The notes under the pieces: generated by a model
Told to the model about the DNA's origin: nothing
Seen by the model: only the letters and a program-made list of their open reading frames with translations
Database searches by the model: none
Origin: Platanthera guangdongensis
Taxonomy: Eukaryota > Streptophyta > Magnoliopsida > Asparagales > Orchidaceae
Length of the DNA: 64,000 nucleotides
Direction of reading: 5' to 3'
Assembly (NCBI GenBank): GCA_039583875.1
Contig: CM077162.1
Span: forward strand, 62,850,822-62,914,821
Part shown: in pieces, positions 12,037 to 55,475 of the stretch
How positions within the stretch are numbered: the first letter of the stretch is position 1
How the letters are laid out: each line of letters opens with the position of its first letter
Program-made: the position numbers and the translations under genes

Positions 12037-12330
12037 ATTATAAGTTTTTAGAAGGAGAAACAGCGAACTCCATCTTGCGGAAAAGAAAAGCTTCAAGCTC
12101 AGGTCGACAAAAAAATTTCATAAAGAAATGATATCGTCGATCTCAATTTGAAGCAGGGGAAAATAGATCGTCGATCTCTGTTCGACGAAATAATTTATGA
12201 AGCAAGGTCGTCGATCTCCGTTCCGAAAAAATGACTTCACAGAGAGATTTTGTCGATCTCAGTTCGACAAAAAATTCTCAGGAAGAGTTCACAGATCGTC
12301 GACCTCCGTTCGGCGAAAAGTGACCAATTC
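12037..12330 (-). promoter_or_regulatory. Pre-ORF2 region of C: palindrome array and TATA-like box
   Basis: About five to six GTCGA units occupy 12095-12320, between the pol end and ORF2. A TATA-like CTTATAAT lies at 12037-12044, about 75 bp before the ORF2 ATG. The layout matches the same place in E and H. Confidence 0.65.
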
Positions 12331-21057: not shown

Positions 21058-21330
21058 TGAGTTTTATATTAGGGTTCGACGCAGATAAGGAAAGATCGTT
21101 GAACTCCGTTCGACGATCTGGGCTTCTAAAGGATACTGAAAGGTCATCAACATCGTCGATCTCCGTTCGACGATATTGGAGAGCGTCGAGCTCCGTTCGA
21201 CGATCACTGACCGGAAGAAGATAGCTTAGTACTATCTGGAAAGCGCTGAACTCCGTTCTACGATTTCTAAGAACGTCTATCTCCGTTCAACGATCTTTGG
21301 GAAAAACGTCGAGCACAGTTCAGAGACTAG
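21058..21330 (-). promoter_or_regulatory. Pre-ORF2 array and TATA-like box of E
   Basis: Six to seven GTCGA units with the spacer CTCCGT lie at 21085-21325. TAATATAAAAC follows at about 21058-21070, ~120 bp before the ORF2 ATG. H has the same TATA-like sequence. Confidence 0.7.
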
Positions 21331-29234: not shown

Positions 29235-29445
29235 TCTGTCCTACAATAATTCAATAAAAACTTCGATCTCAGATTTAAGAGGCTAAATAGATCGTCGATC
29301 TCCGTTCGACGATTTATCTTCTGAAGTATAGACGTCAATCACCGTTCGACGATATTTTCTTAACAGAGCTGTCGTCAATCGAAGGTCGACGATTTAGCTC
29401 AAGATTACTTCCGAGATCGTCAAACTATGTTCAACGATTTTGGAA
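29235..29445 (-). repeat. GTCGA array between pol and ORF2 of D
   Basis: About five decayed units. No clear TATA box is seen next to this copy. Confidence 0.75.
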
Positions 29446-31711: not shown

Positions 31712-31856
31712 TGTTGGGTACATTGGTTTAAATGTACCTGATTTGAAGAAACCTCACCCAACTCAATGATATACATCAAAATGTATTTGATGTATTTTGA
31801 GTTACTTGTGCAGGTTAAGTATTTGCAGGACTGAATCAAAAAGTTTCTAAGTCCAT

Positions 31857-32745
31857 GTGTCGACACCCAGAGGGAAAGTGTCGACACTTAAGAAGACTTG
31901 TGTCGACAACCAGACAAGCAGTGTCGACACTTGGAGTCATTGTGTCGACACCAGGGATGCTGAGTCGACACCAGAGAGAAAGTGTCGACACAAGGAGCTG
32001 TGTCGACACTCAATGAAGAAAGTGCAGTGAAGTTGTGTCGACACTTAGCAGTTGTGTCGACACCCAGTGAAACTGTGTCTACATCAGAAAGTGTCGACAC
32101 TTGGAGGCTGTGTCGACACTCAACAAAAGCTAGCAGAGACTAAGTATAAGTGTCGACACCCAGAACAATGTGTCGACACACAGCAATAGAGTCAACACTT
32201 GAAGTAAGTGTCGACACCCAGAACAATGTGTCGACACTTAGCTGAAGACTCAACACTTGAAGAAAGTGTCGACACAAGGAGTTGTGTCGACACTTAGCAA
32301 AGATCAGCAAAGTTCAAGAATATTCTAAGTACAAGTATCGACACTAAGGAGATGTGTCGACACTCAACCAGAGTCTCAACACAAGGAAGAATGTGTCGAC
32401 ACAAGGAGATGTGTCGACACTCAACAAGTATCAACACTGAAGACATGTGTCGACATCAAGAAGCTGTGTCGACACTTAACAGATTCAACACATGAAGATG
32501 TGTCGACACAAAGGAGATGTGTCGACACTTAGAAGAATTCAGCAAAATACAGAAGTACAAGGACTTGTGTCGATACACATTATCAGTGTCGACACATGAA
32601 GAAGAAACGGTGTCGATATATAAAATCTACAATACAAGGAGTTGTGTCGACACCTTGTAGACTAGTGTCGACACGTAGACAACTTGTGTCGACACTTGGT
32701 CTATAAGTGTCGACACTTAAAGACATAAAGTCTCGACACTTACAG
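31857..32745 (+). repeat. GTGTCGACAC palindrome array in the G 5' LTR
   Basis: About 35 copies by eye, period about 20-22 bp in the regular parts. It resembles the A1 array almost unit for unit. Confidence 0.95.
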
Positions 32746-32873
32746 ACAGTTACAGTTATTTCAAGAACTGACTGGATGACTTGACAGCTGCCATTCCAGT
32801 CGGTCTACTGCACCTGTCAGAGTTGTCAGAATTCAGTTATGGACCGGACCAGCCGGTTACCATGAAGAAGGCC

Positions 32874-32883
32874 TATAAATAGG
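32874..32883 (+). promoter_or_regulatory. TATA box of the G 5' LTR
   Basis: TATAAATAGG, preceded by ACCGGACCAGCCGGT. The identical TATAAATAGG occurs upstream of ORF2 at 39181. Confidence 0.75.
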
Positions 32884-33702
32884 CTTGTGCTGTCTACAGA
32901 TAGAGGTTGTTCAGATCATTGATCAAGTGTTTAAACAAAGAAGATCGTGCTATCAAGTGCAGATCTAAGAAGTTGGAGAGAGGGAGCTCCATCCAAGAAA
33001 TCAGTTGTTGGAACCCAGCTGAGAAGAAGGTTTCTGATTGGTCTGAATCTTAAGAAGCAGAGATCAAGGATCAACTACAGAGGAATCAGTCTTATTGTGT
33101 TCTACTTTCAAGAAGCTTTGAAGAAAGCCAAGTCAGATTGATTTCAGCTGAGTTCTTCCAAGAACTCATCAAGAATCTCACAACTTATCTCTCTTTCATC
33201 AGAGTTGTTGAGTTTATACTTTTTGTATTCATTATAACTTGTAGGATCCTTAGGGATCTGAGATTGTAAGCCTGCAATTATAAAGGTTGAGGGTAGGAGA
33301 GTTAAATCTCTGAGTGTAGGCCTTGGTGGCTGAGTGTATGCCTTGGTGGCTGAGTATTGGCCTTTGTGGCTGAGTGTAGGCTTTGTGGAAAAGCTGAGTT
33401 GTAGGGCCTTGGGCCTGAGGTGTAGGAGCCTGTTTTGGGTTCTGAGATAGTGGAGGAGTTTGGCCGAATCTAGTACACTGTTAGATAGGCGAAGGGGGAA
33501 AGTGGATGTACCCAAAGCTTGGGGAACCACTATAAAACTCTGTGTCTACTGTGTGATTGTGTTTTGCTGTGATTGCTGAATGTGTGCTGTGATAAAATAG
33601 ATAGAATTCTGTGATATTATCTGATTGCTGCCCAAAAAGTCAAAAAGAATCAAGTCACCTATTCACCCCCCCTCTAGGTGATTAGGTACAATATCTTTCA
33701 AG

Positions 33703-33804: not shown

Positions 33805-35841
33805 ATGGGTTCCACTGAGAATCACAAGGAATTGGGATCCATGAAGTTACCCATATGTAGGAAAGAGATCTTTGGGATATGGAAGGAAAGGGTGAGACTT
33901 TTTATGGAAGCCTCAGACCCTAGGATTTATATCACAGTAAAAGAAGGGCCATATGTGCCCATGAAGGTTTCAGTCTTGGATGCCAATCAGAGAACACATA
34001 AGGATTTCTCTGAAATGACAAAGGATGAAATTGTTCTAGCCACTATGGATAAGAGGGCTCAGAACATAATAGTGAGTGTCATAGATGATGCAACTTTTCA
34101 GAATCTGATACACTGTAAGACAGCTAAAGAGATGTGGGAAACTCTTATTGTGTATATGGAGGGTTCTGAAGAAGTAAGGCAAGACAGAAAATCCTTGCTA
34201 AATCAAGAATATGAAAGTTTTAGACAAGGAAAAGCTGATAGCATAACTGAGTGCTATAAGAAGTTCTACAGAATTGTGAATGAACTCATGTCCTATGGCA
34301 GAGAGTTCAGTAATTATGAACTCAATGACAAGTTTCTAAGGTCCCTAACTAAAGATTGGGACACCAAGATCTGTGCCATTAGAGAAATGGCTAAGTTGGC
34401 AGAAATTCCTCCACCTACACTGTTTGGCAAACTGCTGTCTTATGAAATGCAGTTGACAGTGAGGAAAGAAGAGGAGAAATCAACAAGAAGTGAACATAAG
34501 GAGAGGACAGTGGCCTTCAAAATAGAAGCCCCCAGAAGGTACAAAGGTAAGTCACCAACTCCACCTCCAAAGATTGCTGAAACTGAGTCAGATGAGTTAG
34601 CAAGTACAAAGTCTGAAAGCAGTGAAAGTGATGAGGACTTTACTGCCTTCACTAGACATTTTCAGAAGTTCTTGAAGAAGAAACAGTGGAGGACAAGGCC
34701 TTCTACTTCACAGGGAAAAGAAGACTTTTATCAGAATAAAAAGGCTTCAAAGAAGGACAGGAAAAAGACTAAGTCTAGCAAGGCAACACTTTCAAAAATA
34801 GTGTGCTATTGCTGCAATAGACAAGGCCATGTTGTTGCAGATTGTCCAGAAAAGAGAAAGGAGTCTAGTGACAAGAAGAAGACTCATTTCAAAGGCAAGA
34901 AAGAAAAGTCTTTTGTTGCCAAAAAGGAGAAGACTCTGTCAGATATTTCTTCATCAGAAACTGAGTCAGATGCTGAGGCATATATAGGGTTGTTTGCTGA
35001 AGAAGAAGAAGAAGAGTTCATGCAGATTATGAATTCTATATATGAACAAGAAGAGAGTCAATGCCAAGGGCTAATGGCATTGACAGAAAGTGACAAAATC
35101 CTGGATCAGCCAGGACCTAGTAAGGTACAACATTATTCTTCCAGTTCAGTTTCTTGTGCTAGTACAGAATCAGATTCATCTTCATCAAGTGATGAGAGTG
35201 TATCTGAGTCAGAAGAAGATATTCATCCGTTGATAGATGAATATAAAGTTCTGTTGCAAGCTTATAAGAAGAGCAAGTCCCTAGCCAAAAGTCAGGCAAA
35301 GGAAATTGCTGATCTCTAAGCTGCTGCAACAGATTTTGAGAAGTTATTTGATCAAAAGCTAAATGAGATAGCCAGACTGAAGCACATAACTGTGATTCAG
35401 ATGGGGACTATCATATATAAGAATGATCAAATCAAGAGTCTGGAGATTAATCTTCAGAAGGAGAAGGACTTAGTTGCTAGGTTTTCTAAACCTAAGTCAG
35501 TCTTACCCATAATTGATGAATTTGTTCATCACAAAGGTAAAGCTGGACTGGGATTTATTAGACCTGCAAGGACTGTCCAGTCCAAGTCCAAGGGCAAAGC
35601 CCCAACACTCAACAAGCCAGCTGTAGATAAAACAGCTAAGACTGTACCTAAGCAAAGGTACAATAAGTTTGAGTGTTGGTGTTGTGGCAAGATAGGCCAC
35701 TTTGCAATGGACTGTTGGCACAATGCTAGTGCCAAAGTGAGTAGCAAACTGCCTATTGGAAAACCAGTAGGTAGTCTTGTCAGGATGCAAACTAACAAGT
35801 ACCAAGGACCCAAGAATTCTTTGGGTTCTAAGGTTCACTAA
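33805..35841 (+). pseudogene. gag of element G, one internal stop
   Basis: The capsid-nucleocapsid polyprotein starts at ATG 33805. The first ~200 residues are the copia gag domain (FGIWKERVRLFMEASDPRI, MDKRAQNIIVSVIDD). A zinc knuckle CYCCNRQGHVVADC is at residues ~333-347, followed by an acidic Ser-rich stretch. A TAA at 35317-35319 ends the open frame after 504 residues, but the same frame continues to 35841. That part has coiled-coil character and a second knuckle, CWCCGKIGHFAMDC, near residue 625. The TAA could be a single mutation or a programmed stop. Family-2 gags have only one knuckle. Confidence 0.85.
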
Positions 35842-35856: not shown

Positions 35857-38732
35857 AGTCCAAGTGGCCATGCCCCAATATGGTACTTGGATAGTGGATG
35901 TTCCAAACATATGACTGGAACAAGGGGTTTACTAAAGGACTACATACCCATCAAGGATGGTCCAAAAGTCACCTTTGGTGGTTCTGAAAAAGGGATCATC
36001 AAGGGTTTTGGTAACATATCTAACTCCTTTATTAGAATTACTCAAGTGGCCTATGTTAAAGGTTTGAAACATAACCTTATTAGTATAAGTCAATTGAGCT
36101 ATGTAGGATATGACATCTCATTTGTTAAGAATGGTTGTCATATCAAGAGGTCAACTGATCAAAAGATCATTTTGACAGGTTATAGAAAGAGGAATGTCTA
36201 CTGCCTAGACATTATGCTGTGAGGTGTTTATACCTCTTGCATATGGATCTCTTTGGTCCAATGCCAGTTCACAGCCTAGGTAGGAAGGTCTATACCTTTG
36301 TAGTTGTAGATGACTACTCAAGGTTTTCCTGGGTGTTCTTCTTAAGACAGAAATCTGAAACACCTAATGTTTTTTATAGCTTTGTCAAGCAAATTCAGAA
36401 TGAACTAGACAGTACAGTGGTCAAGATTAGAAGTGACCATGGTACTGAATTTCAGTCTGAGAGTATGGCAAAACTATGTGAAGACTTTGGGATATTTCAA
36501 GAGTTTTCTTCACCAAGAACACCTCAGCAAAATGACATTGCTGAGAGGAAGAATAGAACCTTGATTGAGGCTGGTAGGACCCTATTAAGTGATACATCAT
36601 TAACAGAATACTTCTGGGCTGAAGCAGTTAATACTGCATGCCATGTTATTAATAGGGCTACCATTACTAAAGGCCTTAACAAGACCCCCTATGAGGTTGT
36701 GAAAGGCAGGAAACCAAACCTATCCTACTTCAGGATCTTTGGTTGTAAGTGCTTCATACTTAAAAATGGAAAGTCTTACTTGACTAATTTTGCTGCCAAG
36801 TCCCAAGAGGGAATTTTTGTTAGGTACAGCAATAATAGTAAGCCTTATAGAGTCTACAACTTGTCTACTCAAGTTGTAGAAGAGACTGTATATGTAGTAT
36901 TTGATGAAACTAGGCTTATTAATAATGAGTTGTCTAGTAGTGTATGCAGCCCCACAGGTTTAACAAAGAAGATGGACAAGCTCACTCTAGAAGAAGAATC
37001 TACAGCAAGACAGCAAATAGAAGACAGTGGCTGTTGTCCAGGGGGAGTACTACATGTACCTGATGCAGAAGAAGTACAAGGAGTGCAGCAAGATGAAGGA
37101 ACTGAAGAGGTTCAACCAGAAGTTAGGATGCCTCCAGCCTATAGGCATCTTAGAGATCATCCAGTAGAGCAGATCATTGGTGATCCAAGACAAGGGGTAC
37201 AAACAAGGAGCAGAAATCTGAATACAGCAATCTACTCCAGTTTTCTATCTCAAGTTGAACCAAAGAAGTTTGAAGAAGCCTTTCTAGATCCACAATGGAC
37301 TGAAGCAATGCAAGAAGAGCTGAATTAGTTCAAGAGGTGCAAGGTTTGGGAACTTGTTCCTAAATCTAAAGACCACAATATAATAGGAACCAAGTGGATC
37401 TACAGGAATAAGTTGGATGAACAAGGTGTCATCATTAAGAATAAAGCAAGATTGGTTGCTAAAGGATATAGGGAGGAAGAAGGTTTTGACTTTGATCAAA
37501 CCTTTGCTCCAGTAGCCAGACTGGAAGCCATAAGGATGTTCCTGGACTATGCAACCTTTCAAGGATTCAAAGTTTACCAAATGGATGTCAAGTTAGCATT
37601 TCTGAATGGTAATCTTAAAGAGGAAGTCTATGTGGAACAGCCATCAGGTTTTGTTGATTCAACTCTACCTAATCATGTCTATAGAGTTAGGAAAGCTTTA
37701 TATGGGTTAAAGCAAGCCCCTAGGGCTTGGTATGAAACCCTATCTAGTTTCCTCATTGAGAACAAGTTCTCAAGGGAGAAAATGGATAAGACTCTATTCC
37801 TTAGGGAATCTAGAGGCAAAGTAATACTAGTCCAAATATATGTAGATGACATTATATTTGGGTCAACTGAAAGCAGCCTTTGCAAAAAGTTTGCAAAACT
37901 TATGCAAGGTCAATTTGAGATGAGTAGTATGGGAGAGCTAAAGTTCTTATTGGGTCTCCAAGTAAGACAGACTGAGAATGGATTATCCATATGCCAGTCC
38001 AAGTTCACCCTAGAACTCATAAGGAAGTATGGTATGGATTCATCCAGTACCATGAAGACTCCTATGGGGTCAAGTGTGTCTCTTAGCAAGGATGATACAG
38101 GGAAACCTGTAGATGAGTCTTTGTATAGAGGGATAGTTGGCTCCCTTCTATATTTGGCTGCAAGTAGACCAGATATCATGTATGCTACATGTGTTTGTGC
38201 AAGGTATCAAGCCTGCCCTAAAGAGTCTCATTTGACAGCAGTCAAAAGGATATTGAGATATCTAAAGGGCACTCCCTATTTAGGCCTCTGGTACCCTAGG
38301 AATGGGGATTTTGAACTAACAGGTTATTCAGATGCAGACTATGCAGGATGCAAAGAAGATAGAAAAAGCACTACTGGAACCTGTCAATTCCTAGGTGGGA
38401 GACTAATTTCATGGAGTAGCAAAAATCAAACAAGTGTGGCTATCTCCACTGCAGAGTCAGAATATGTGGCTGCTGGAAGTTGCTGTGCTCAAGTTCTATG
38501 GATACAGCATCAGCTTGAGGACTATGGAATTCAGGTAAGTAGAACTCCACTCTTTTGTGACTCTACTAGTGCTATTTCAATAGCTAATAATCCTGTATCC
38601 CATAGTAGAACTAAACATATTGAAATTAAATATCATTTTCTTAGGGAGCATGTAGAAAGAGAAGATATTTTACTTGAATATGTTAGAACAGATAATCAAC
38701 TAGCTGATATGTATACTAAGCCCCTAGAATAA
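35854..38732 (+). pseudogene. pol of element G (protease, partial integrase, RT-RNase H)
   Basis: Protease [10 protein letters not shown] is at ~35891. The open frame stops at 36222, and integrase resumes in another frame at 36219 ([12 protein letters not shown]). About 80 residues, the HHCC pre-integrase zinc finger, are missing compared with H. The DDE residues remain ([24 protein letters not shown]). A TAG replaces Gln at 37326-37328. The RT and RNase H part is open to 38732, with [37 protein letters not shown] and [13 protein letters not shown]. The RT half looks fit; integrase does not. Confidence 0.93.
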
Positions 38733-38806
38733 GCTAAGTTCAATAGGTTTAAAATTGAACTAGGAATGATAAACTTAGAATAGGTTTATATTGGCTAAGT
38801 AAAATA

Positions 38807-39286
38807 GTGTCGACACACAGAGTTGTCTGTGTCGAGATAGTATAGTGGTGTCGACACTTCAGGGAAAAGGTGTCGACACATCTAGGAAGTTAGTGTCGAC
38901 ACTTCAGAATATTAGTGTCGACACATGATACGTAGGTGTCGACACATCCAAAGTGGTGTCGACACTTAGTTTTTACTCAGAATTCTCTAAGTAAAGTCTC
39001 GACTATGTGTCGAGTTAAGTTGTGTCGACACATAAATAAGTGTCGACACATATATATGTTGACTAAAACTTGTGTCGACACATATATGTCGAGACATTCT
39101 AAGTCAGTGTCGACACTTATCGCCAGTGTCGACACAATTCAAGTTAGCTGCCCGCCTTTTCATCTTCAAACCTAGAAATGTATAAATAGGATTTTGCCTT
39201 TGTCTGTCGACACGCTTTCAAAAGTTTCGAGACCAAACTACTGTGTCGACACCTCTCTTCTCTCAAGTCAAATTCTTCAAACCCTA
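38807..39286 (+). promoter_or_regulatory. Pre-ORF2 promoter-like region of G: GTGTCGACAC array plus TATA
   Basis: Exact GTGTCGACAC copies start at 38807, 38848, 38870, 38893, 38914, 38936, 38956, 39022, 39040, 39072, 39106, 39126 and 39243, with GTGTCGAG variants between them. The period is 19-23 bp in the first 150 bp. TATAAATAGG is at 39181-39190, identical to the LTR TATA box, and the ORF2 ATG is 97 nt after it. The unit order TATA-leader-ATG mirrors the LTR promoter. Confidence 0.8.
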
Positions 39287-42184
39287 ATGGCGCCAAAGCT
39301 TGAGGAGAACGTCAACGAAAGATACGAACTGGTGCGCGACGCATTGGGATGCTGACCAAGAAATCAAGAACGTGATAACCCTAGTTGCAGACTCAAGGTT
39401 AGAATATCTTGTTTCTGAACCTACTAAAATATGGAAGAAAGAGGTACTGGAATTCCTCAATGGAGCTAAGGTAGATGAAACTGGATTCAAGATCAAATCC
39501 AGGGTTCATGGTGAGAAGGTGAAGGTATCACCTAAGAGCTTGAGGAAGATTCTACAGCTACCAAGAACTAAGGAAGAGGATGAAGTAACTGCTTCTAAGA
39601 CAAGAGAAGCATTGATATGGTGTGGTCTAGATTCTAAGATGAAGATTGGATCTGTTTTCAATAGAAAAGGCATGAACAGCCAAGGCAAATTCATGTCTGA
39701 GATTGTTGGAAAAGTAATAGTATGCAAACCTGGAGGGCATGATAGAGTATCAGCCCATATGTTCAGTATTATGACAAAGATCATCTTCACTTTGAAAACA
39801 GATTGGTCTGTTATAATCTTTGAAAAGATAAAGGAAAGCTTGAAGAAGCCAAATCTGGGCAGGATTTTAAGCCTATACCTTGCTGGAAGTATTCCAGAGG
39901 TTATGGGTCAAGCTGCTGGAAGCAAAATCAACCATATGAGAAAAATGGATATGAGAATTTTCTCCAGATGGGACAGGATGTTGTCTAAAGAGCTGCCAAC
40001 CCCTGAGAAGATAGTTCCTGAGAAAGTATCACCTCCAAAGAAGAAGAGGAAAGCTGCTCCAGTGGCTCAGGTTCGAACTAGCAGCTCTGAAAGTGAAGAG
40101 CAAGTGGTTTTTACACCAGATGAGAATGAGGAAGGAACTGCTGTAAAGTCTCCTGCTCCTCAAGATGTTGCTGAGATCCAGGGGAGCTACCTCAAGCTAG
40201 CCCCATACACAAGGATCACATCCAGGGGGAGTCTCTAGTTGTAGAAGAACCAACTACACTAGAAAGTGAACAAGCAACCAACACAATACTTGAGGTAATC
40301 ACTGAAGTAATACTTTAGATTTTCCTATAGAGGATACTGATTTGTCTGATGTTCATCAGCAAACTCAGCTGGATAGCCAAGTCCCAGATGCTGTCATGGA
40401 AGACACATCTGTTGAAGTTGTAGTTACTGATCCAGTGGTTGAAGAGCCAAGACTTTCTCCAGCTCATTCACCCCAAGAATTTACAATGGAAGATTTATTC
40501 CTAAATCTGGATCAACAAGACTTTTACAAGGACACTGCTGCTACTGAAAAAGAGAATGCTCCAGTTGAGGGGGAGCAAGTTGTAATTCTTGAAGAGCCTG
40601 CAAGACAAGAAACTGAGAAGACACCAGATGTGCAGACTGAAAAACCCAAAGCTGTTGAGGAACTACCAAAGGGAAGGGTAGATATAGCCAGCTCCTCAGC
40701 ATCTGAAGATGAGGAGGCTGCAAGGGTAAAGAAATATAAAATTTATGTATTCAAGAGAAGGAGTCAGAGTTATAAGAAGGCCTTACAATCTATTGCACAA
40801 CAGCCTATATCACAGCCAGCTCCATTTGTTGATTATAGTGCTTTAATGGTTGCAATGCAAATTAAACTTGATGAGCAAAGGCAGGCCATAGAGAAATATG
40901 TGGATGAAGGGCAGAATTCTCTCCAATTTGATCTAGCCCAGGACATAAAATCTATCAGGTTTGAAATGAACCAAAATAAAAAGGAGATGACTAAATGTTT
41001 TCACAAGGGTGGAAATGCAGTGGTGTACTTGGCTACACACCAGGAGAAGATAAAAGCACAAGTGGATGACATGGCTGTGAAGCAAGGTTATGTTCTTGAA
41101 AATCAGATAAGAATGAATGACAACCTTACTGCATCTCACAATGCAATAGTCACAGAACTGAAGAATCTAGCTGCAGGGCAGACTCCAGTTATAGCAAAGG
41201 CAGATTTTGACAAAGTATTCCTAGAAGAAATCACTGCTCTTAAGACTGCCATCCAAGATTCTCAAAAGTTGATAACTGACAAACTCCAAAGGTTAAAACC
41301 TTTCTTTAAAGATGGAGTTAATTATTTGGATAATCAAGTAAGATTTCAGAAAGATGATGTCAGAGATCATATAGAAAGAGAAGTCATAAAGGGGGAGAGA
41401 GTTTTAGTCAAAGCCAGCTCTGATCATGCCAAGTGGATATCAAATTCTATCAGAGCAACTCTTGGATATCCTCCTCTTTGTGATGATGATAATGTTGCTG
41501 AATCTGGAATTCATCCTGCATATCTAGGAGGGGAGCAACCTGAAGTGGCTCAAGTCATCTACCCTCCTCCAGATTTTGATATGGTTCATGCTGACATACA
41601 GTCCATGTACAGCCCCACCTAGGGGCAAGGACAATATCATTATTGAAAAAGTTGTTCAGCCAATATCTGAAGCTATGCAAGAAGCACTGCAGAAAGAAGA
41701 AGAGACTAGATTGTCTAAGAAGAGGTTTAGGGAACAAGCTGAACAAAGACCAGACTTTGAGCAGTGGAGCCCTACCTCAAGAAATATTATTTTGACTGCC
41801 TGGAAAGCTGCCAAAGATAATGTGCATGACAAGAACGAATGATTTTCTGAGGCTGAATGGAGAAAACATGAGTCTAGGCAGGAGGCTATAGTCCAGTACA
41901 GAAGGAAGGCCAAGATGGGAAAGCTACCTCATACTGCTCAGGAGCCTAGCAAGTACTTTCCTAAGCCTTATCATTATTTTGAGAGGCAAAAGATTAAGGC
42001 TGAGGAACTTAAGAAGAAATATCTGAAAGGGAAGAAGCCTGCTGAAACTGGAGACACTGAAGCCTCAGTACAAGCTAGAGTACAATCTGGGAAGGGCATA
42101 GTCATTAAGGAGGCTGAACAGAAATATCTTAGAAATTTTCTCTTAAGTTTACTATGTATTCTTTTGATGAAAGACATTATGTAA
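39287..42184 (+). pseudogene. ORF2 of element G (frameshifted)
   Basis: ATG 39287 reads MAPKLEE; a 1-nt shift within the next 15 nt gives the long frame ending at 40238. That frame holds an N-terminal domain like the plant 'putative transposon protein' ORFs (EFLNGAKVDETGFKIKSRV, KVSPKSLRKILQLP, GKFMSEIVGKVIVCKPGGHD) and PPKKKRKA, very like a classical nuclear signal. 40342-41622 has acidic and long coiled-coil segments. 41576-42184 holds the basic C-terminus, with TGA for Trp at ~41841. Compared with A1 the normal stop is changed, so the frame runs on ~17 codons to 42184. No membrane segment is visible. Confidence 0.85.
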
Positions 42185-42404
42185 ACTTTAGTATTATGTA
42201 TATGACAAAGTATTGGAACAATGTGTTGTGTAATAAATTTGCTATGTGTTAAATTTATTTTATAATTGTTCTGTGATGCAATCTATGTGTACATGTTTGT
42301 TTCATACATGTTTATGTTTGCCCTGATATATAATCCTGCTTTACATCATTTTGTAATTTTATTATGAATGGTGTATATCATTGACTAAGGGTTATGACTT
42401 CTCC

Positions 42405-42418
42405 AAATAGGGGGAGAT
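42405..42418 (+). promoter_or_regulatory. Polypurine tract of G
   Basis: AAATAGGGGGAGAT before TGTTGGG. Confidence 0.85.
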
Positions 42419-43269
42419 TGTTGGGTACATTGATTTAAATGTACCTGATTTGAAGAAGCCTCACCCAACTCAATGATATACATCAAAATATATTTGATGT
42501 ATTTTGAGTTACTTGTGCAGGTTAAGTATTTGCAGGACTGAAGCAAAAAGTTTCTAAGTCCATGTGTCGACACCCATAGGGAAAGTGTCGACACTTAAGA
42601 AGACTTGTGTCGACACCCAGACAAGCAGTGTCGACACTTGGAGTCATTGTGTCGACACCAGGGATGCTGAGTCGAAACCAGACAGAAAGTGTCGACACAA
42701 GGAGCTGTGTCGACACTCAATGAAGAAAGTGCAGTGAAGCTGTGTCGACACTTAGCAGTTGTGTCGACACCCAGTGAAACTGTGTCTACATCAGAAAGTG
42801 TCGACACTTGGAGGCTGTGTCGACACTCAACAAAAGCTAGCAGAGACTAAGTACAAGTGTCGACACCCAGAACAATGTGTCGACATACAGCAGTAGAGTC
42901 AACACTTGAAGTAAGTGTCGACACCCAGAATAATGTGTCGACACTTAGCTGAAGACTCAACACTTGAATAAAGTGTCGACACAAGGAGTTGTGTCGACAC
43001 TTAGCAAAGATCAGCAAAGTTCAAGAATATTCTAAGTACAAGTGTCGACACTAAGGAGATGTATCGACACTCAACCAGAGTCTCAACACAAGGAAGAATG
43101 TGTCGACACAAGGAGATGTGTCGACACTCAACAAGTATCAACACTGAAGACATGTGTCGACACCAAGAAGCTGTGTCGACACTTAACAGATTCAACACAT
43201 GAAGATGTGTCTACACAAAGGAGATGTGTCGACACTTAGAAGAATTCAGCAAAATACTGAAGTACAAGG
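42419..43269 (+). repeat. 3' LTR of G, left part (851 bp)
   Basis: Begins TGTTGGGTAC and is cut inside its GTGTCGACAC array (42563-43225) by H. It continues at 55476. Confidence 0.94.
43265..43269. repeat. Left target-site duplication of H (CAAGG)
   Basis: Matches 55471-55475. Confidence 0.93.
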
Positions 43270-44833
43270 TGAAAGGGGGAACTAGATCTGATATACTCTA
43301 AAGGGGGGGTGAATAGAGTATATGGTGCTTTTTAAAAACACAAAGAGAAACTTTTGCAAAGCTTTACAACAATTGTTGTAATGAGTGTAAGCAAGGAAGC
43401 AGAAATAAAACTAAGCTATGCAGAAACTAAGCACAAGAAAATCTAGGCCAGAAACAAAAAGAAAACATGCAAAACCAGATGACACAAGGAAATATAGTGG
43501 TTCCCCAACTTGGGTACATCCACTCTTCTACCACCCTAGGTAGGAATCCACTGCAGGATGAGTTGATCAGGTGTCCTGGGCACCAATGAGCTTTTGATAA
43601 GGTGCTCAAAAACCAACACAGATTTTTTGATCAGGTGTCTTGCCACCAATGAGCTTTTGACAAGGTGCTCAAAAACCAGATTCAAACTTTTGAAGGGAGT
43701 TTGAAAAACCCTTTACAGCATGGGGTTGAGAGAGTGATGGCAGTCTTCTCTTTCTCAAGCAATTGAGAAGACTATGTGGATTCAGTGATGTTGTCAAAGC
43801 TCCCCCTGAGTCCTTGAAATCTTCAGGAAGATGAGCTTTGCTGAGGGTGATAGGCCTTCAAAGATAGATCTCTAGCAAAAGATGATTTCAGCAAGCTGAA
43901 ATGTTGAGTGTCTGGAGTCTTGAGATGATGTTGGCCTTGAACACTTGAGAGCTGAAGAGATCTGAAGATTTTTTAAAAGCTTGATCTCTCTGATGAGTGT
44001 TCTTCTGAATTCTTGTTGACAGAATATTTTTTAGAGTCTCTGTGTATTGAGAGGTGTCCTATTCTTGTCTGTTATCTGTCTTTATTCAAAAACATTCTCT
44101 TTTATTCTCTGTCTCTGAATAGGATATTACTCTGTCAAAGATAGCCGTTGGTCTGCATTGATTACAGCCTTAATTGCATAATATGTTCTGAAGGAAAGTC
44201 CACTGATTTGTTCCTTGAAAAATTCCTTGAAACTTGCTCCAGAAGTAAATGAAAATGGCTGGCAGATCTTCTGAATTAAATGCATAATAACTTCTATCTG
44301 ATTTGAATTTGAATTCTGAAAGATAACTGAAATCGTCGAACTGAGCTCTGCTATCGTCGAGCTGAGCTCAGCGAACTGGAAAATGCAAGCAGCAAAGAAA
44401 TCGTCGATCTGAGCTCAAAGATCGTCGAACTGAGCTCAGAGATAAGGATCCAGTGCAGAGTCAAAATCGTCGACCTGAGCTCAGCGATCGTCGAATGGAG
44501 TTCGACGATATTGAGACGTTGAGCTCAGCGATCGTCGAGCAGAGCTCGACGATATTATGAGGCATGAGCTCAGCGATCGTCGAATGGAGCTCGACGATCT
44601 GGCAAAGTTGAGCTAGACGATCGTCGACCGGAGTTCGACGAAACGTCGTGCTGAGCTCGACGATTTGGACTTAGTTTCCAGAAAAACTTGGGTCTTCAGA
44701 GCAGCTTCCAATCCTAACCTTTTAACCCTTAGACTCAATTCTAATTGACCTATTAAGCTATACAGAAGGTCAAGACATAGATTCCTAGAGACATAGTGAT
44801 CCTGACCCAAATTAGTAATAGGGTGTTCCAACA
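43270..44833 (-). repeat. 3' LTR of H (1564 bp)
   Basis: Ends are TGAAAGGGGGAACT and GTGTTCCAACA. It contains CTTTAGAG with seven C on the element strand near the LTR end, the conserved TAGTGGTTCCCC/GGGTACATCCACT block (43496-43527), two tandem ~60-bp units with TTGATCAGGTG and CACCAATGAGCTTTTGA (43563-43670), and the array. Confidence 0.95.
44333..44670 (-). repeat. GTCGA palindrome array in the H 3' LTR
   Basis: About ten units, each TCGTCGA, a CTGAGC- or TGGAGT-like spacer, then TCGACGA or a changed half-site. Confidence 0.92.
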
Positions 44834-44850
44834 ATCTCCCCCTATTTGGG
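44834..44850 (-). promoter_or_regulatory. Polypurine tract of H
   Basis: ATCTCCCCCTATTTGGG on the plus strand. Confidence 0.87.
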
Positions 44851-45008
44851 TTAGGAAAACTATTTACAGACATATGAAAAACAAACAACATCATACAGAA
44901 AAATACAGAAACAACAGAAGCTAGACATTACAGAACCATCACAGAGATATATAAAAGCATGATATCCAGAAGGCAGTCAAAAAAACCAAGAATTATCACC
45001 TTACAGAG

Positions 45009-48000
45009 TTATTCCTTTTCTTTGCCTTTTACCATTTTAATTTCTCTGTTAGGATCTAAAGCTTGTTGTTTTGATCTGGTATCATCAGCTGCACCCAAAT
45101 AGATTTGCTTTGATGTCCTGGGAACCACTGCAGCTGGATGCAACTCCATGTATCTGTCTGCATCAAAGAACTTACTGGAGGCATATCTTTCTAACTCTTT
45201 TTGCCTTTGCTCTGACATGGTAGAGATATTGGAAGTGTCTAGCCCTTGTTCTTTTGCTTTCTTTATCTGATCCAAAGCAGCCAGCTCTTTCATTCTTGCA
45301 GTCCAAGCCATAGGATTTTTCTCAGGATCCTCAAATGGAACAGGTGGCTCATACCTGTTGGAAGTAGTATCTTGAGGAGTCCTGGCAGTCACAGTATCTT
45401 TGAGCTTGTAGGGGAAAGGACCAGAAGATGTGTCAGATGGAACATGTCCTCCCCTAGAGTCAGGGTGCTGCCTGGAGTGTCCTTTAGAGTAAACCTGAGT
45501 TTCTCTTTGGTTTCCCCTATATCCTCCCATTTTGGAGTAAGACCCCCTAGACTGGCTTTCCCTTTGATATGTTCTTGCATGAGGTTGGTAGGGAGCCTGG
45601 CTTCTAGCAGGGCCTGAACTTGCAGAGCTGCCACCTGCACCTGCATCAGGTGGAGGTGGTGGAGGAGGATGAGGGTGCTTGAACTGAGTGGGACCTTTTT
45701 CATACTTCCTCTTCTTTTTCATAGCCTTTAACTGGTTCTTAGAGAATTGCATCCAATGCTCAGTGATTAGGCAATTGTGCAGAATATAATATGGAACATC
45801 ATTATCATCTCTGACTTTGGCAGGAGGAACTCTTTTCAAATCCTTACTTCTTGCCTTTCTTTTCTTTGCAATTGTGGCAGATGAGTCATCAGAAGCAGTG
45901 TTATAATCCTCTGATTCAGAACTTTGTGCATCATACAAGGCATCAATCTTCTTCATCAGATCTTCTTTCAGTTTAACAACAGCTGATGGGGCAACAGATA
46001 CAGAAGCAGGAGGAGCAACAGAAGCAGCAGATGTAACAGCAGATACTGGAGTAGCAGTAGAAGCAACAGAGATGATTTCAGGAATTTTGGCAGCAACAGG
46101 TTCAGAAACAATAACATCTACAGCAGGCTCAAAATCAACAGCCTCTGTCATCAAAAGATCCTGGGATGAGGGTATATCAGAAACATTCTCTTCAGCAGCA
46201 GATATAACTCCAGAGGCAGATACAGCCTTGTCTTCAGCAGCAGCAGCAGTAACATCATCAGAAGCAGTAGTTACTGACAGAATAAAATCAGAAATGATTT
46301 TGGGGTCACAGCAAGAGAAGGGCACTAGAGCCTTGGACAGATCTTCAGAGAGCTGGCCAGCAAGAACCTTTGGGGGCTGGACAGCATATGGCTCTGGGAG
46401 GCAGCAGAAGTAAGCAGTATCAAAAGTAGATAGCAAAGACCTTAGGTCTATTGCTAGTACTGGTGTAGCAGCAGCAGCAGAAGCAGACACAGAACCAGCA
46501 GCAGTGGCAGAAGCAGAAACAGCAGGAGGAGCAGCAGCAGCAACAGCAGCATGAAGGCTGGCTTCATAGGGCATCTCCCCCTGCCTGGATGCAGATACCT
46601 GTGCATCAAGGCACACTGCTGGGGGTGCTGCTAGAGGAGTAAGGAAAGAGGAAAGCCTGGCAGAGAGAGCTGCCACTGATTGTTGTAGAGGAGCTAAAGA
46701 GGCCTCCATGAGAAGAGAGAGCCTAGGTGCAAGGAGCTCATACAACTGATCAGCAAGGGCTGGGAGATCTATATGCTCAATGAGAGGAGCAGAGGTAGAG
46801 GGTATTGGGATGGCTGAGGAAGCTGGAGGTGGAGGGCTGGATGGTGAAGGGATAGAGGGCTGAGGTGTGGGAATTGTGGAGATGGAGGATAAGGGTATAG
46901 AGATGGATGGAGTGAAGGATGGTTGGTCAAGGATATGGTGGAGGAGATCTTGGAAGGATGTTGAGGTGGAGGGGAAGTCTGGAGGAGAAGAGGGGGAATC
47001 ATCCATGTAGGATTCATCCAGAAGTGTGAAGGATGGTATGGATGGGGATGAGGTGACATCTGGAGGTGGATATGAGAATAAGGGATGGAAGTGGATTGCT
47101 GGTGGAGATGAGATGGTGGCTGGAGATGGAATAGAGGTTGGAGATGGGCTGGAAATTGTAATGGGGGATGAGGCTAGAGTGGTGGATGGAGCTGGAGGTA
47201 GGGTTGAGCTTGGAGGAGGAGAAGCAGCAGCACTAACAGCAGGCAGGTCCTCTGCAGGGGCAGAGGCCTGGGGTGGAGTGACTCTTAGAGTCCTGGTGCC
47301 TGAAGGGGCAGAAGAAGAGGGCCTGCTGGGCTTGGAGATATGCCTGTCCCATTTCCCAAAAAGGGCACAGGTGAGTCTCTTGGAGGCATTGATGTGCACT
47401 CCAGAGGAGACTAGCAGAGAAGGGCACTTGGCCTGGAGGAAGACTCCCAGAATTCTTCCATAATTCACAAATGTTTTGTTTATCTTTTTCTTCAACAAAT
47501 CAAAAAAGACTTCTCCCCAGTTCAAGCTTTTTCTATCCACCAGAGCTCCCATGAGGCAGACCTGATATCTGGAGATGGTGTCATGAGCAGAATGCTTGGC
47601 CAAGAGAACCTTGCCTACTACATCAGCCAGAAACCTGTATTCCACTGACAGGTTCCTCTTAAACAACTTGCTAGGGTTTCCCTCAGGATGACCCATCCTG
47701 GCAAGTACATCTGAGAATTCATCTCCAGAGAGTTCAGCAGAATCTTCACCATTCCTTAAACCAAAAACCTCTGTCAATACTGTTGGGGTCAGAGGTACCT
47801 GGGTGCCACCAATAGAACCAACTATGGTATTGTTGTCAAGGTTATGGGCAGTGTAAACCCATTCTTTAATTTCATCAGATGCAAGTTTGATTCTGGTTGT
47901 CATCAGGGCAGATAGTTGCTGATCTTTGAATAAATTGAGAATATCCTGGAAGATTTGATCGGTTGTGTTGAAGGAGTCGAGATCGATGTCAAAGCCGGCA

Positions 48001-48041
48001 TCAAATTTCATTGCAGCGAGCACAACAACTGAAACGGCCAT
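45009..48041 (-). CDS. ORF2 of element H, intact (1010 aa)
   Basis: The chosen start is ATG 48041 (MAVSVVVLAAMKFDAGFDID) because C, D and E begin at the same place; the frame is open 12 codons further upstream. In order: a conserved N-terminal domain of ~245 residues (FLADVVGKVLLAKHSAHDT, NWGEVFFDLLKKK, CALFGKWDRHI), a long Pro/Ser/Thr-rich part, a Leu/Ala-rich coiled-coil-like segment, an Ala/Val-rich part, and an acidic block (IDALYDAQSSESEDYN). Then come the basic clusters KKRKARSKDLKR and KKKRKYEKG, an Arg/Gly/Gln-rich stretch, and a conserved ~115-residue C-terminal domain (RMKELAALDQIKKAK, LHPAAVVPRTS). I see no signal peptide, membrane span or cleavage site, so it does not look like an envelope protein. 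A nuclear role is inferred. Confidence 0.9.
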   Translation of the reverse strand: MAVSVVVLAAMKFDAGFDIDLDSFNTTDQIFQDILNLFKDQQLSALMTTRIKLASDEIKEWVYTAHNLDNNTIVGSIGGTQVPLTPTVLTEVFGLRNGEDSAELSGDEFSDVLARMGHPEGNPSKLFKRNLSVEYRFLADVVGKVLLAKHSAHDTISRYQVCLMGALVDRKSLNWGEVFFDLLKKKINKTFVNYGRILGVFLQAKCPSLLVSSGVHINASKRLTCALFGKWDRHISKPSRPSSSAPSGTRTLRVTPPQASAPAEDLPAVSAAASPPPSSTLPPAPSTTLASSPITISSPSPTSIPSPATISSPPAIHFHPLFSYPPPDVTSSPSIPSFTLLDESYMDDSPSSPPDFPSTSTSFQDLLHHILDQPSFTPSISIPLSSISTIPTPQPSIPSPSSPPPPASSAIPIPSTSAPLIEHIDLPALADQLYELLAPRLSLLMEASLAPLQQSVAALSARLSSFLTPLAAPPAVCLDAQVSASRQGEMPYEASLHAAVAAAAPPAVSASATAAGSVSASAAAATPVLAIDLRSLLSTFDTAYFCCLPEPYAVQPPKVLAGQLSEDLSKALVPFSCCDPKIISDFILSVTTASDDVTAAAAEDKAVSASGVISAAEENVSDIPSSQDLLMTEAVDFEPAVDVIVSEPVAAKIPEIISVASTATPVSAVTSAASVAPPASVSVAPSAVVKLKEDLMKKIDALYDAQSSESEDYNTASDDSSATIAKKRKARSKDLKRVPPAKVRDDNDVPYYILHNCLITEHWMQFSKNQLKAMKKKRKYEKGPTQFKHPHPPPPPPPDAGAGGSSASSGPARSQAPYQPHARTYQRESQSRGSYSKMGGYRGNQRETQVYSKGHSRQHPDSRGGHVPSDTSSGPFPYKLKDTVTARTPQDTTSNRYEPPVPFEDPEKNPMAWTARMKELAALDQIKKAKEQGLDTSNISTMSEQRQKELERYASSKFFDADRYMELHPAAVVPRTSKQIYLGAADDTRSKQQALDPNREIKMVKGKEKE

Positions 48042-48046
48042 GGTAC

Positions 48047-48066
48047 CTGCAAAAAAATCAACAGAC
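48047..48066 (-). promoter_or_regulatory. 3' splice-site-like sequence before the ORF2 ATG of H
   Basis: GTCTGTTGATTTTTTTGCAG, then GTACC and the ATG. A strong plant-type acceptor by eye. Confidence 0.6.
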
Positions 48067-48534
48067 AAAACGACCAAGTGTAGAACTGCTTGGAGGGAAG
48101 AAAAGTTTGCAGAGAAATTGAAAGCGCAAGAGAGAACGACGACGAAAAAAGAGTTTTATATTAGGGTTCGACGCAGAAAAGGAAAGATCGTTGAACTCAG
48201 TTCGACGATCGAGGCTTCTAAAGGAATCTGAAGAGACTCCAAAATCGTCGATCTCCGTTCGACGATCTGGAAAGGCGTCGAGCTCCGTTCGACGATCGTT
48301 CAGTGAACAAAATCGTCGAGCGCCGTTCGACGATCGTTGACCAGAAGAAATAGTCTATACTATCTGAGGAGCGCTGAACTTTGTTCGACGATCCTGGAAA
48401 TCGTCGACCTCCGTTCGACGATCTTTGGGGAAATCGTCGAGCGCAGTTCAGAGATCAGAGAAATTTTAGATACTAAGGAAAATCAGAAATTTTGCCTAGT
48501 CTTGGTCAATTTTTAGCTTTCAAAATCTTGAGTA
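48067..48534 (-). promoter_or_regulatory. Pre-ORF2 region of H: GTCGA array and TATA-like box
   Basis: About seven units at 48186-48454 with spacer CTCCGT (TCGTCGATCTCCGTTCGACG type). TAATATAAAA follows at 48154-48163, ~113 bp before the ORF2 ATG. The leader after it is CT-rich. 48455-48534 holds the pol 3' flank without a visible feature. Confidence 0.75.
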
Positions 48535-51500
48535 TTATTTGAGACTTCCTCCATCTAACATTCCTAACTGATTTAGGAAGAAGGTGTGTTTCTTTTCATC
48601 CAAAGGCTTGGTGAAAATATCTCCCCTTTGTAAATCAGTTGGGATATATTGCAGTTCAATTTTGTTCTTTTCAACATTATCCCTTAAGAAATGATGCCTA
48701 ATCTCTATATGTTTTGTCCTACTATGGAGGACTGGATTTTGAGCTATGGAGATAGCACTTGTATTGTCACAAAAGATTTTTGACTTTTCTAAGTTGTAAC
48801 CATAGTCTAGGAGTTGGTTTTGAATCCACAGTATTTGTGAACAACAACTGCCTGCAGCCATATATTCAGCTTCAGCAGTTGAAGTTGACACAGATGTTTG
48901 TTTCTTGCAAAACCAAGAGACAAGTCTATCACCAAGGAACTGACAAGTTCCACTGGTGCTTTTCCTGTCAATTCTGCATCCAGCATAATCAGCATCAGAG
49001 AATCCAGTTAACTCAAATGCTGAATCTTTTGGATACCAGAGACCTAGATTTGGACAACTTTTAACATACCTAAGAATCCTCTTTACTAATGTGAGATGTG
49101 ACTCTCTAGGGCTAACTTGGAATCTAGCACATATACATGTAGCAAACATTATATCTGGTCTACTGGCTGCAAGATACAGTAAAGAGCCAATCATTGCCCT
49201 ATATGTTGTCTGATCAACAGGTTTCCCATGTTCATCAGCATCCAATACAGCATTGGTAGGCATGGGTGTTTTCATACAAGATGCCTCAGACATGTCAAAT
49301 TTCTTAACCAGCTCATTAGCATATTTGGTTTGAGAAATAAAGATGCCTTCAGCATGTTGTTTGACTTGCAATCCTAGGAAGAAGGATAGCTCACCCATGC
49401 TACTCATCTCAAATTTAGAATGCATTAGGTTAGAAAACCTTCTGCACAATTTTGAGTCAGTAGACCCAAAGATGATATCGTCTACATAAATTTGTACTAG
49501 TAGGGTATGGGACTTATGAGTTCTAATAAAAAGAGTTTGGTCTACTCTACCCCTTATAAAACCATTTTCCAAAAGAAAGCATGCTAGGGTCTCATACCAT
49601 GCTCTAGGAGCTTGCTTGAGACCATATAATGCTTTATTTAATCTAAAAACAAAATCAGGATGAGTTGGAGAGATAAAACCTGGAGGTTGTCTGACATAGA
49701 CTTCCTCTTTGATGTCTCCATTCAAGAAGGCACTCTTGACATCCATCTGATAAACCTTGAAGCCTTTGTGAGCTGCATAAGCTAGAAATATCCTGATGGC
49801 TTCTAATCTTGCAACAGGTGCAATGGTCTGGTCATAGTCAATTCCTTCTTCTTGAGAATATCCTTGGGAAACTAGCCTTGCCTTGTTCCTTATTATTACT
49901 CCTTGATCATCCAGTTTGTTTCTGAATACCCATTTTGTTCCAACAATGGAATGATCCTTAGGCTTGGGCACTAGTTCCCATACTTTGTTCCTCTCAAATT
50001 GATGCAACTCCTCTTGCATGGCAATGATCCAGTGTGGATCTTGCTCTGCATCTTGAATGGATTGAGGTTCAATTTGAGAAAGAAAGCAGGTGTGCAACAG
50101 GTTTTGGTTGACCTGATTTCTGGTTTGCACACCGGCTGAGATTTCTCCAATTATTTGGGTAATTGGATGGTCTCTTGATGTTACTAAATCAACAGGGGGT
50201 GTTGATTGTTCACCAACCTGTGTTGTTGTTTCCTCTTGTGGTACAACAACTGGCTCTTCAAATGGGGCTTCAATGTGTTGAGCATTGCTTTCATCTTCAC
50301 TGCTTTCTTCTTCTTGAGCAACCTGTAGCTTGTTCATATCTTCAACTAGAGAGTGTTCCTGCAAAGGTTCTATGGTAGAAGAAATCTTCTCCTTGAAAGA
50401 CATGTTAGTTTCATCAAAAGAAACATGAACAGATTCCTCAATTTTCAGAGATGATTTATTATATACCCTATAGGCCTTGCTGATCATGGAGTATCCCAGA
50501 AACACTCCTTCATCAGCTTTGGCTTGAAATTTTGTTAGATGTTTCTTATCATTATTATGAATATAACAAATGCAACCAAAAATTTTGAAATAGTCAACTT
50601 TAGGTTTCTTCCCTTTGAGTAATTCATAGGGAGTCTTTCCCTTCAGTTTATGTATCAGGCTTCTGTTCAGCACATAGTTGGAGGTGTTCACTGCCTCTGC
50701 CCAGAAGGATAGAGGTAGATGAGCATCTGACAACAATGTAGTGGCAGATTCAATAAGGGTTCTATTTTTCCTTTCAGCTACCCCATTTTGTTGAGGAGTT
50801 CTAGGAGCTGAGAAAGTATGCCTGATCCCTTCACTCTGGCAGAACTCTTGCATAAGAAGAGAATCAAACTCTGTCCCATGATCACTTCTGATCAGGGCAA
50901 TGTGAGTATTGAACTCAATCTTTACACATTTGAGAAACTCTGTCAGACACTTAAAGTTATCAGACTTCTTCCTTAGAAAGAACACCCAAGTGAATCTAGA
51001 GAAGTCATCTACAATCACTAGAGTGTAGGATTTCCCTCCTAGGCTTTGTACTGTGATGGGTCCAAATAGATCCATGTGTAACAGATACAGTATCCTAGGT
51101 GAATCACTCTTATTAAGTGACTTAAAACTGTTTTTAGTTTGCTTGCCTAATTGACAAGCCTTGCAGAGTCCTTCCTTCTTGTAGGGGCCAGAAGGTAGTC
51201 CTCTAACAAGGTTGTCCTTGGATAGCCTAGCAATAGTTCTAAGGTTTAGGTGTCCTAGTCTCTTATGCCATAAAACATTTGGTCTACAAACTGAGTTGAA
51301 TAAGCAGATATCTATAGTAGTTGAAAGAAAATCTACTAGGTAGATGTTACCTTTCCTTTTACCTGTCAACACAGTTGTGTTGTCCTCTGACTTGATTTTG
51401 CATAAGGTTTTGCTGAAGGTCACCTGGTAGCCTTCATCACATAGCTGACTGATGCTGATTAGGTTGTGCTTCAGTCCTTCCACATATGCTACCTTCTTGA

Positions 51501-51699
51501 AGGTTACAGAACCAATCTGGACTGCTCCATATCTTTTAGTTTGTCCAAAGTTGGAGTCACCAAAGATAACTTTGGGTCCAAGCTTGGCTCTAAAGGAATT
51601 GAGGTTGTCCTTGTTCCCTGTCATGTGCTTTGAGCATCCACTATCCAAATACCATTGCTGGTTAGATGTTGGATAGGTCTTCACCTGCACATAAAACAA
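48535..51699 (-). CDS. pol of element H, intact (1054 aa)
   Basis: The copia polyprotein in one frame. Protease active site D19-S-G. HHCC zinc finger H145, H150, C179, C182. Integrase triad D210, D273, E309 (DX62DX35E). Reverse transcriptase with D653 ([12 protein letters not shown]) and YVDD at 738-741. RNase H with SDADYAG (901-907), STAEAEY (940-946) and CDNTSA (977-982). The order protease-integrase-RT-RNase H is that of Ty1/copia. There is no usual ATG: the frame opens just before the gag stop, in the +1 frame relative to gag, so expression needs frameshifting or splicing. It ends with TAA 48535-48537. Confidence 0.96.
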
Positions 51700-51703
51700 T
51701 TTA
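51685..51703 (-). promoter_or_regulatory. gag-pol junction of H with acceptor-like CAG
   Basis: On the element strand: gag stop TAA, then ATTGTTTTATGTGCAG (CAG at 51685-51687), then pol. The pol frame overlaps gag by about 16 nt before the stop. Confidence 0.5.
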
Positions 51704-53776: not shown

Positions 53777-53893
53777 GATTTGTGCAGGCTAAGTCTAATA
53801 CTAGAAAACAAAAGAAGGATCTAGTTTGGGATCTTTGGGGTTCAGGTGTTAGCCTGTACAACCAAACAGATATGGTATGTTTAACCAACCTCG

Positions 53894-53904
53894 CTTTGAT
53901 ACCA
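53894..53904 (-). promoter_or_regulatory. Primer binding site of H
   Basis: CTTTGATACCA on the plus strand, i.e. TGGTATCAAAG: one base differs from TGGTATCAGAG in E, D and G. Confidence 0.85.
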
Positions 53905-53906
53905 AT

Positions 53907-55470: not shown

Positions 55471-55475
55471 CAAGG
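55471..55475. repeat. Right target-site duplication of H (CAAGG)
   Basis: Matches 43265-43269. Confidence 0.93.

Follow-up and report, generated by a model that had tools for sequence, protein, structure and literature searches.

How is the open reading frame (ORF) beyond pol expressed in a Sirevirus-type retrotransposon? The question is raised by element G, which lies in a 64,000-nt stretch of the orchid Platanthera guangdongensis (contig CM077162.1 of assembly GCA_039583875.1, forward-strand positions 62,850,822 to 62,914,821; hereafter the window, numbered from its first letter). In a full-length RNA of G, 124 ATGs would precede this third ORF, termed ORF2, which therefore needs some device: an internal promoter, splicing or readthrough. 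The expression and role of the Sirevirus third ORF are described as unsettled (PMC2829016, PMC3414828). Here we describe an array of self-complementary boxes, a TATA box and a short ATG-free leader between pol and ORF2 of G, and we propose, with a probability of about 0.6, that positions 38807-39286 serve ORF2 as an internal RNA polymerase II promoter that shares the upstream sites of the long terminal repeat (LTR).

Box array, TATA box and leader ahead of ORF2

The window contains 98 copies of the box GTGTCGACAC, where shuffles lead one to expect 0.01, and 13 of these exact boxes fall within 38807-39252, 12 of them ahead of the TATA box and one (39243) past it. With up to two mismatches allowed, the 554-bp spacer between pol and ORF2 holds 17 boxes, and none is found in leader, gag and pol (5,032 bp) or in ORF2 and the 3′ untranslated region (3′UTR; 3,132 bp). 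The first-pass annotation had counted 13 exact palindromes plus variants before ORF2, as these figures confirm, and had placed them about 21 bp apart, which is true of most spacings but not of all: ahead of the internal TATA box, exact boxes follow each other at 41, 22, 23, 22, 21, 20, 66, 18, 32, 35 and 19 bp (range 18-66 bp). Pooling the spacings below 60 bp from both LTR arrays and the spacer (56 in all, with longer spacings dropped) revealed a periodicity near 18-21 bp that none of 5,000 uniform draws equalled in strength.

The same annotation had recognized both the palindrome array and the TATA 10-mer in the LTR, and rightly so: the 5′ LTR has 27 exact boxes, and the three copies of TATAAATAGG in the window lie in the two LTRs of G (32874 and 55787) and in the spacer (39181). 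Of the boxes with no more than one mismatch, the final one upstream of the TATA box ends 45 bp ahead of it in the spacer versus 134 bp in the LTR. Between G (32780-32900) and its sister element A (2450-2580), a block of ~120 bp that leads up to the LTR TATA box and surrounds it looks more alike than does the remaining LTR and is a likely core promoter block. Across the 8,718-bp internal region of G, TATAAATA has a single plus-strand copy, just past the array, and none on the minus strand, and TATAAA has three plus-strand copies. In 2,000 dinucleotide-shuffled spacers, the interval from -160 to -50 of the ATG contained TATAAATA three times, TATAAA 77 times and TATAAATAGG never. The TATA 10-mer and the ORF2 ATG (39287) are separated by 96 bases.

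A coding function of the spacer is ruled out by stops in all three forward frames. Insertion of an LTR fragment ahead of ORF2 was rejected as well, in agreement with the earlier statement that this is no simple LTR insertion: the self-comparison, which reported matches of at least 150 bp, has none between spacer and LTR, and around the TATA box only ~20 matched bases align, of which the 10-mer makes up half (score 25, reached in one of 500 single-base shuffles). Given this short alignment and the fact that the LTR of element A reads TATATATAGG at the TATA position, we dropped the identical 10-mer as proof of shared ancestry with the LTR; it is weak evidence for what might be a common origin. 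The array with its TATA box is a real feature and looks functional.

Recurrence in related elements

Four minus-strand elements of the window (M1, M2, N and O) carry a different box, an interrupted palindrome near GATCGTCGAACGGAGCTCGACGATC. All five ORF2 starts located in the window, including that of G and found without an exhaustive search, have an array of their family's own box between pol and the ATG, so that two motif types are represented, four arrays being unlike G's (Table 1). The first-pass annotation had suggested looking for an array plus TATA box before ORF2 in related elements; the array part of this expectation holds throughout, the TATA part for four of the five starts by the loose pattern TATAA (G -106, M1 -119, M2 -125, O -80) and for three by TATA[AT]A. 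Each of the five leaders is free of ATG and each start reads ATGGC; the leaders are 0.62-0.74 pyrimidine, compared with 0.48 for the plus strand of the window and hence 0.52 for the minus strand.

When M1 and M2 were scanned with a GATCGTCGAACGGAGCTCGACGATC-type consensus, matches fell in both LTRs, in the spacers separating pol from ORF2 and in the 3′ portion of the gag region, with none in pol or from ORF2 to the polypurine tract (PPT); with 50 shuffled versions of the consensus, the matches summed over all parts averaged 0.1 and never exceeded 2. Six matches each were obtained in the O and N spacers. As the scan counts near-palindromic sites on both strands, the true number of boxes may be as low as half of its figures. 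In the LTRs of M1 and M2, AATAAAAG is found ~0.2-0.3 kb past the arrays, and the TATAAAG of M2 lies still farther. In M1 (51900-52137) and M2 (24776-24959), both on the minus strand, a third box cluster lies within the 3′ portion of gag, a short way ahead of pol; G has none.

Outside the window, relatives of ORF2 were found in Platanthera only, which points to an orchid host, protein searches yielding 2 of 767, 7 of 7,990 and 4 of 7,997 candidates (one of the last four already found); in the two larger searches only the candidates sharing most words were scored. In viral contigs, nine pattern matches included no confirmed ORF2 relative, and no triple-box array was found. The Platanthera zijinensis gene model P0010 runs from reverse transcriptase (RT) into ORF2, translating through the leader. 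Between TATA box and ATG, it has the same residue as G at 10 of 11 TATA/box codons versus 7 of 24 others (one-sided Fisher p 0.0009, with motif classes set after the alignment had been viewed). Likewise, P0006 translates, as judged by eye, through an M-type array and the place of TATAAAA (residues NPNIK). These comparisons are at the protein level, where residues allow other codons. Array, TATA box, ATG-free leader and recurrence in relatives are what the sequences show.

CpG content and conservation of the boxes

The elements in 31712-43269 and 43270-55470, i.e. G and M1, are nearly CpG-free outside their box arrays, the pol of M1 having two CpGs in 3,165 bp. In G, leader, gag and pol (5,032 bp) contain a single CpG, whereas ORF2 and 3′UTR (3,132 bp) contain 10, and 87 of its 116 CpGs lie within TCGA. 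Observed/expected CpG ratios in G are 0.01 for gag-pol, 0.09 for ORF2 and 1.11 for 38807-39290; in M1, they are 1.64-1.94 in the arrays versus 0.02-0.04 in pol and ORF2.

Constraint on the box array of G was measured on the LTR, as element A enters the window inside ORF2 and its spacer lies outside. When the LTRs of G and A are aligned, box positions agree in 264 of 270 cases and other bases of the array region in 661 of 762 (246/250 and 679/782 in the reverse direction). Of the sites in G, 32/34 TCGA CpGs, 5/8 other CpGs and 706/791 C or G outside CpG are kept in A. The spacers of M1 and M2, compared in two directions, are less clear (TCGA 7/7 and 7/11; other CpGs 19/23 and 19/20; other C or G 130/155 and 131/162).

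A proposed internal promoter and its alternatives

The order found in G, an array followed by a TATA box, a short ATG-free leader and ORF2, is the one expected of an internal promoter. Also in its favour are the restriction of boxes to spacer and LTRs, the single TATAAATA just past the array, the periodic box spacing, the arrays and ATG-free leaders at all five ORF2 starts, the codons kept in P0010 and P0006, the better conservation of LTR boxes and the arrays at this site in nine further Sireviruses (PMC2829016). A factor binding the self-complementary GTGTCGACAC box would activate the LTR promoter and the internal promoter alike, so that full-length RNA and a short ORF2 messenger would be made under one control. 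The TATA box at 39181 would set the start ~25-35 bp downstream, at about 39205-39220, leaving a leader of ~65-80 nt in which the first ATG would be that of ORF2. Factor binding, shared control, the start site and the existence of the ORF2 messenger are what we infer here. The proposal of the first-pass annotation that ORF2 has its own promoter under LTR-type control is partly supported: an array outside the LTR with a TATA box fits it and recurs, and the promoter's activity is a prediction.

Several observations weigh against an internal promoter. N has no TATA box, and O has one by the loose pattern only. The gag-internal box cluster of the M-type elements has no TATA box after it, as judged by eye, so that boxes do not always mark a promoter. 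The ~120-bp block common to the LTR TATA boxes of A and G is missing at the internal site. An ATG-free leader is weak evidence alone, the chance of finding no ATG being 0.38-0.76 per dinucleotide-shuffled leader across the five leaders. The P. zijinensis TATA box is deduced from the residues GINR, of whose 144 possible codings one yields the exact 10-mer, and aligning repeats can itself favour box identity. Six ENV-containing Sireviruses have no boxes (Bousios et al., PMC2829016). Finally, an acceptor-like TGCAG or CACAG directly precedes the ORF2 ATG in all four M-type copies (48041, 20943, 29119 and 11962, minus strand).

These acceptor-like sites favour an explanation that we consider rather unlikely, though better than those that follow: ORF2 would be made from spliced RNA starting in the LTR, and the array would have another role, for instance as an enhancer of the LTR promoter. 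G, too, has one acceptor-like site, at 39175 just ahead of the TATA box, where P0010 joins RT to the ORF2 leader, and splicing has been reported for barley Bagy2 (PMC7264820). However, between TATA box and ATG of G no site reaches 10 pyrimidines in 15, the join in P0010 is a gene-model prediction, and splicing leaves the TATA box after the array unexplained. Splicing may apply above all to the M-type elements, and an internal promoter and splicing may both be acting together.

It is improbable that the arrays work as RNA or as silencing targets, their box hairpins feeding small RNAs or pairing genomic RNAs, with no promoter involved. The spacer array RNA folds far better than its shuffles (z -10.9 in G, -3.0 in M1), and the palindromic motifs of maize Sirevirus LTRs are small-RNA mapping hotspots (PMC5311732). 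Yet exact palindromes fold strongly anyway, and because the folding follows from the palindromes, the z-score separates none of the readings; moreover, a role in RNA or silencing does not predict that the array should be followed by a TATA box and an ATG-free leader.

By analogy with the VANC proteins, the boxes might instead bind an element-encoded protein, perhaps that of ORF2, which would guard the LTR and the ORF2 promoter from silencing in a self-sustaining loop. We see a slim chance that the box serves as such an address specific to the element, recognized by its ORF2 protein or by a partner which that protein recruits, and that both promoters are thereby kept unmethylated. Each motif type pairs with its own ORF2 type, and CpG survives mostly in boxes (the TCGA share given above), as expected if boxes escape methylation or face selection; VANC targets, too, are element-specific motif arrays in non-coding regions (PMC5735166). 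On the other hand, ORF2 has a sub-threshold PF20167 match only, an unusable structure model and no DNA-binding domain shown, and, in contrast to the boxes here, the arrayed copies of the VANC21 motif YAGTATTAY share one orientation. If true, this would be an anti-silencing loop in an LTR retrotransposon, in which promoter, product and motif would evolve together and the CpG scarcity outside the boxes would be the footprint.

That the array is a functionless, self-propagating tandem repeat in a tolerant spacer is very improbable: array length does vary between copies, short repeats expand readily and M1 and M2 have a further box cluster inside gag, but this spacer is home to two motifs that do not resemble each other, conservation in the LTR is higher for boxes than for the intervening bases, CpG is kept in the boxes of elements otherwise almost without it, and nine published elements have arrays at the same place.

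Relation to published work

The first-pass annotation took a second array with a TATA box before the third ORF to be undescribed. For the array this is not so, and the core idea was published by Bousios et al. 2010 (PMC2829016). These authors found palindromic boxes (RM) in 13 Sireviruses and also in the linker of nine, with 77 of 79 linker copies before ENV and no linker boxes in the four elements without ENV. They took the boxes before ENV as support for an internal ENV promoter, an idea credited to Peterson-Burch and Voytas 2002, the promoter itself not being conclusively identified (PMC2829016). As in G, the published RM clusters comprise many palindromic boxes before the LTR TATA box and again before the third ORF, and they show CpG-island behaviour (PMC2829016). 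They differ in their core, CGG-CCG rather than the GTCGAC of G, the closest being Vitis CGGTCGACCG and Tnd-1 ACAATCGATTGT (PMC2829016). G further differs in the TATA box and ATG-free leader past its internal array and in an ORF2 with no detected transmembrane (TM) segment (see below). The literature covered, which includes the available part of PMC2829016 and few subscription papers, yielded no report of a TATA box or a mapped start in this position. What the present case adds is the TATA box, a leader free of ATG and the scarcity of CpG, nearly absent outside the boxes. Array, TATA box and ATG-free leader, recurring with unlike motifs, turn the 2010 suggestion into a narrow, testable 5′-end prediction and offer a short reporter fragment.

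Maize Grande is a Ty3/gypsy element. Its gene23 is likewise an extra ORF between pol and the 3′ LTR with its own internal promoter (Gomez-Orte 2013, via PMC7264820), but it runs antisense to gag-pol, and the available text of PMC7264820 mentions no common box array. The env-like ORFs of SIRE1 and Bagy2 are third ORFs past pol, too (PMC2829016, PMC7264820), with other expression routes, namely stop-codon suppression in SIRE1 and splicing in Bagy2; pol and ENV of SIRE1 are separated by a stop codon only, versus 554 bp in G. The Arabidopsis VANDAL/VANC system (PMC5735166, PMC10398659) resembles the present case in its element-specific short motif, dense non-coding arrays and fast evolution between families, but concerns DNA transposons, a one-orientation motif and an anti-silencing protein shown by experiment.

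Element G, its ORF2 and the neighbouring elements

By self-comparison, the window consists largely of nested Sirevirus-like elements (Table 1). Over 8942-58306, we infer that O holds N, that N, an older element, holds M2 and G, and that G holds M1. The CTTGC outside both LTRs of G is a 5-bp target duplication.

Table 1. Coordinates of the features discussed, in window positions
Feature	Position	Strand	Details
Element G, 5′ LTR	31712..33700	+	97.6-97.8% identity to both 3′ LTR pieces; CTTGC flanks
Element G, LTR box array	31857..32739	.	27 exact GTGTCGACAC in 5′ LTR
Element G, LTR TATA box TATAAATAGG	32874..32883	+	
Element G, gag ORF	33805..35319	+	PF14223, E 8e-19
Element G, pol	36219..38732	+	open pieces: integrase 36219-37328, RT 37413-38732; PF00665, PF25597, PF07727
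Element G, internal box array	38807..39135	.	12 exact GTGTCGACAC and variants; proposed activating sites upstream of ORF2
Element G, internal TATA box TATAAATAGG	39181..39190	+	matching codons in Platanthera model P0010
Element G, proposed ORF2 leader without ATG	39191..39286	+	two boxes: 39204 (one mismatch), 39243 (exact)
Element G, ORF2	39287..41622	+	ATG context TAATGGCG; stop 39353-39355; further open pieces 39300-40238, 40342-41622
Element G, PPT AGGGGGAG	42409..42416	+	start 10 bp ahead of 3′ LTR (42419)
Element G, 3′ LTR, two parts	42419-43269 and 55470-56613 (span 42419..56613)	+	M1 nested between them
Element A (sister of G)	window left end		3′ part of ORF2 plus LTR, ~85% identical to G
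M1	43270-55470	-	inside 3′ LTR of G; own LTRs 99.4% identical
M1, array between pol and ORF2	48186..48456	-	TATAAAA 48160-48154; ATG 48041
M2	16408-28243	-	
M2, array between pol and ORF2	21094..21295	-	TATAAAA 21068-21062; second TATAAA 21389, ahead of array; ATG 20943
O, array between pol and ORF2	12166..12318	-	TATAATA 12042-12036, missed by stricter pattern; ATG 11962
N, array between pol and ORF2	29290..29439	-	no clear TATA; CTTAAGG ~85 bp before ATG 29119

Judged by its sequence features, G is a Ty1/copia element (Pseudoviridae) of Sirevirus type. It has the copia order gag-integrase-RT (PF14223, PF00665 and PF07727 in sequence). In Sireviruses, the CA at the end of the 5′ LTR is followed by ATTGG or AGTGG and then by the primer binding site (PBS) TATCAGAGC (PMC2829016); G reads CA-AGTGG-TATCAGAGG from 33699, differing at the ninth PBS base. 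The Sirevirus-typical PPT AGGGGGAG begins 10 bp before the 3′ LTR. Several extra PPT copies are described from the Sirevirus linker, mainly past ENV and near the 3′ LTR (PMC2829016); in G, three lie past pol (40224, 40568 and 41390), all of them inside the ORF2 region and none past it, and one lies in pol (37040). A palindromic RM cluster precedes the LTR TATA box (27 exact boxes before 32874), and the third ORF, between pol and the 3′ LTR, has an RM cluster ahead of it as Sirevirus ENV-like genes do. The core of the boxes, GTCGAC, is not the CGG-CCG found in 12 of 13 published RMs, Tnd-1 being the exception (PMC2829016); this mismatch does not decide Sirevirus membership, because 8 of the 21 Sireviruses in Bousios et al. 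2010 have no RM (PMC2829016).

ORF2 of this copy of G is broken: its ATG frame ends after 22 codons, and the remainder lies in other frames. The ATG at 39287 is likely to be the true start, as the residues that follow resemble the start of P0001 and the matching part of P0010. The PF20167 match of ORF2 is below the curated cut-off, and the structure model, made from three sequences, has a mean pLDDT of 39.9 and is unusable. TM and coiled-coil domains are named as features of Sirevirus ENV-like proteins (PMC3414828). A Kyte-Doolittle hydropathy scan (19-residue mean >1.6) of two G pieces, the A part, M1 ORF2, the N part, P0001, P0002, P0005 and P0007 detected no TM segment in eight of the nine sequences, M1 (best window 1.56) and N (1.48) lying just under the cut, and the one segment above 1.6, in P0002, lies ahead of its ORF2 part. 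Because this simple scan finds no TM segment in ORF2, an envelope role appears doubtful.

Two further observations concern the other elements. Six exact GTGTCGACAC boxes at 4350-6373, near LTR-like (5379-5532) and gag-like (5845-6373) matches, probably belong to a more distant plus-strand element. At the gag-pol junctions of M1 (~51680-51725) and M2 (~24560-24605), on the minus strand, an intron-like stretch of ~45 nt (GTAAACTG ... TGTGCAG) holds the gag stop codon.

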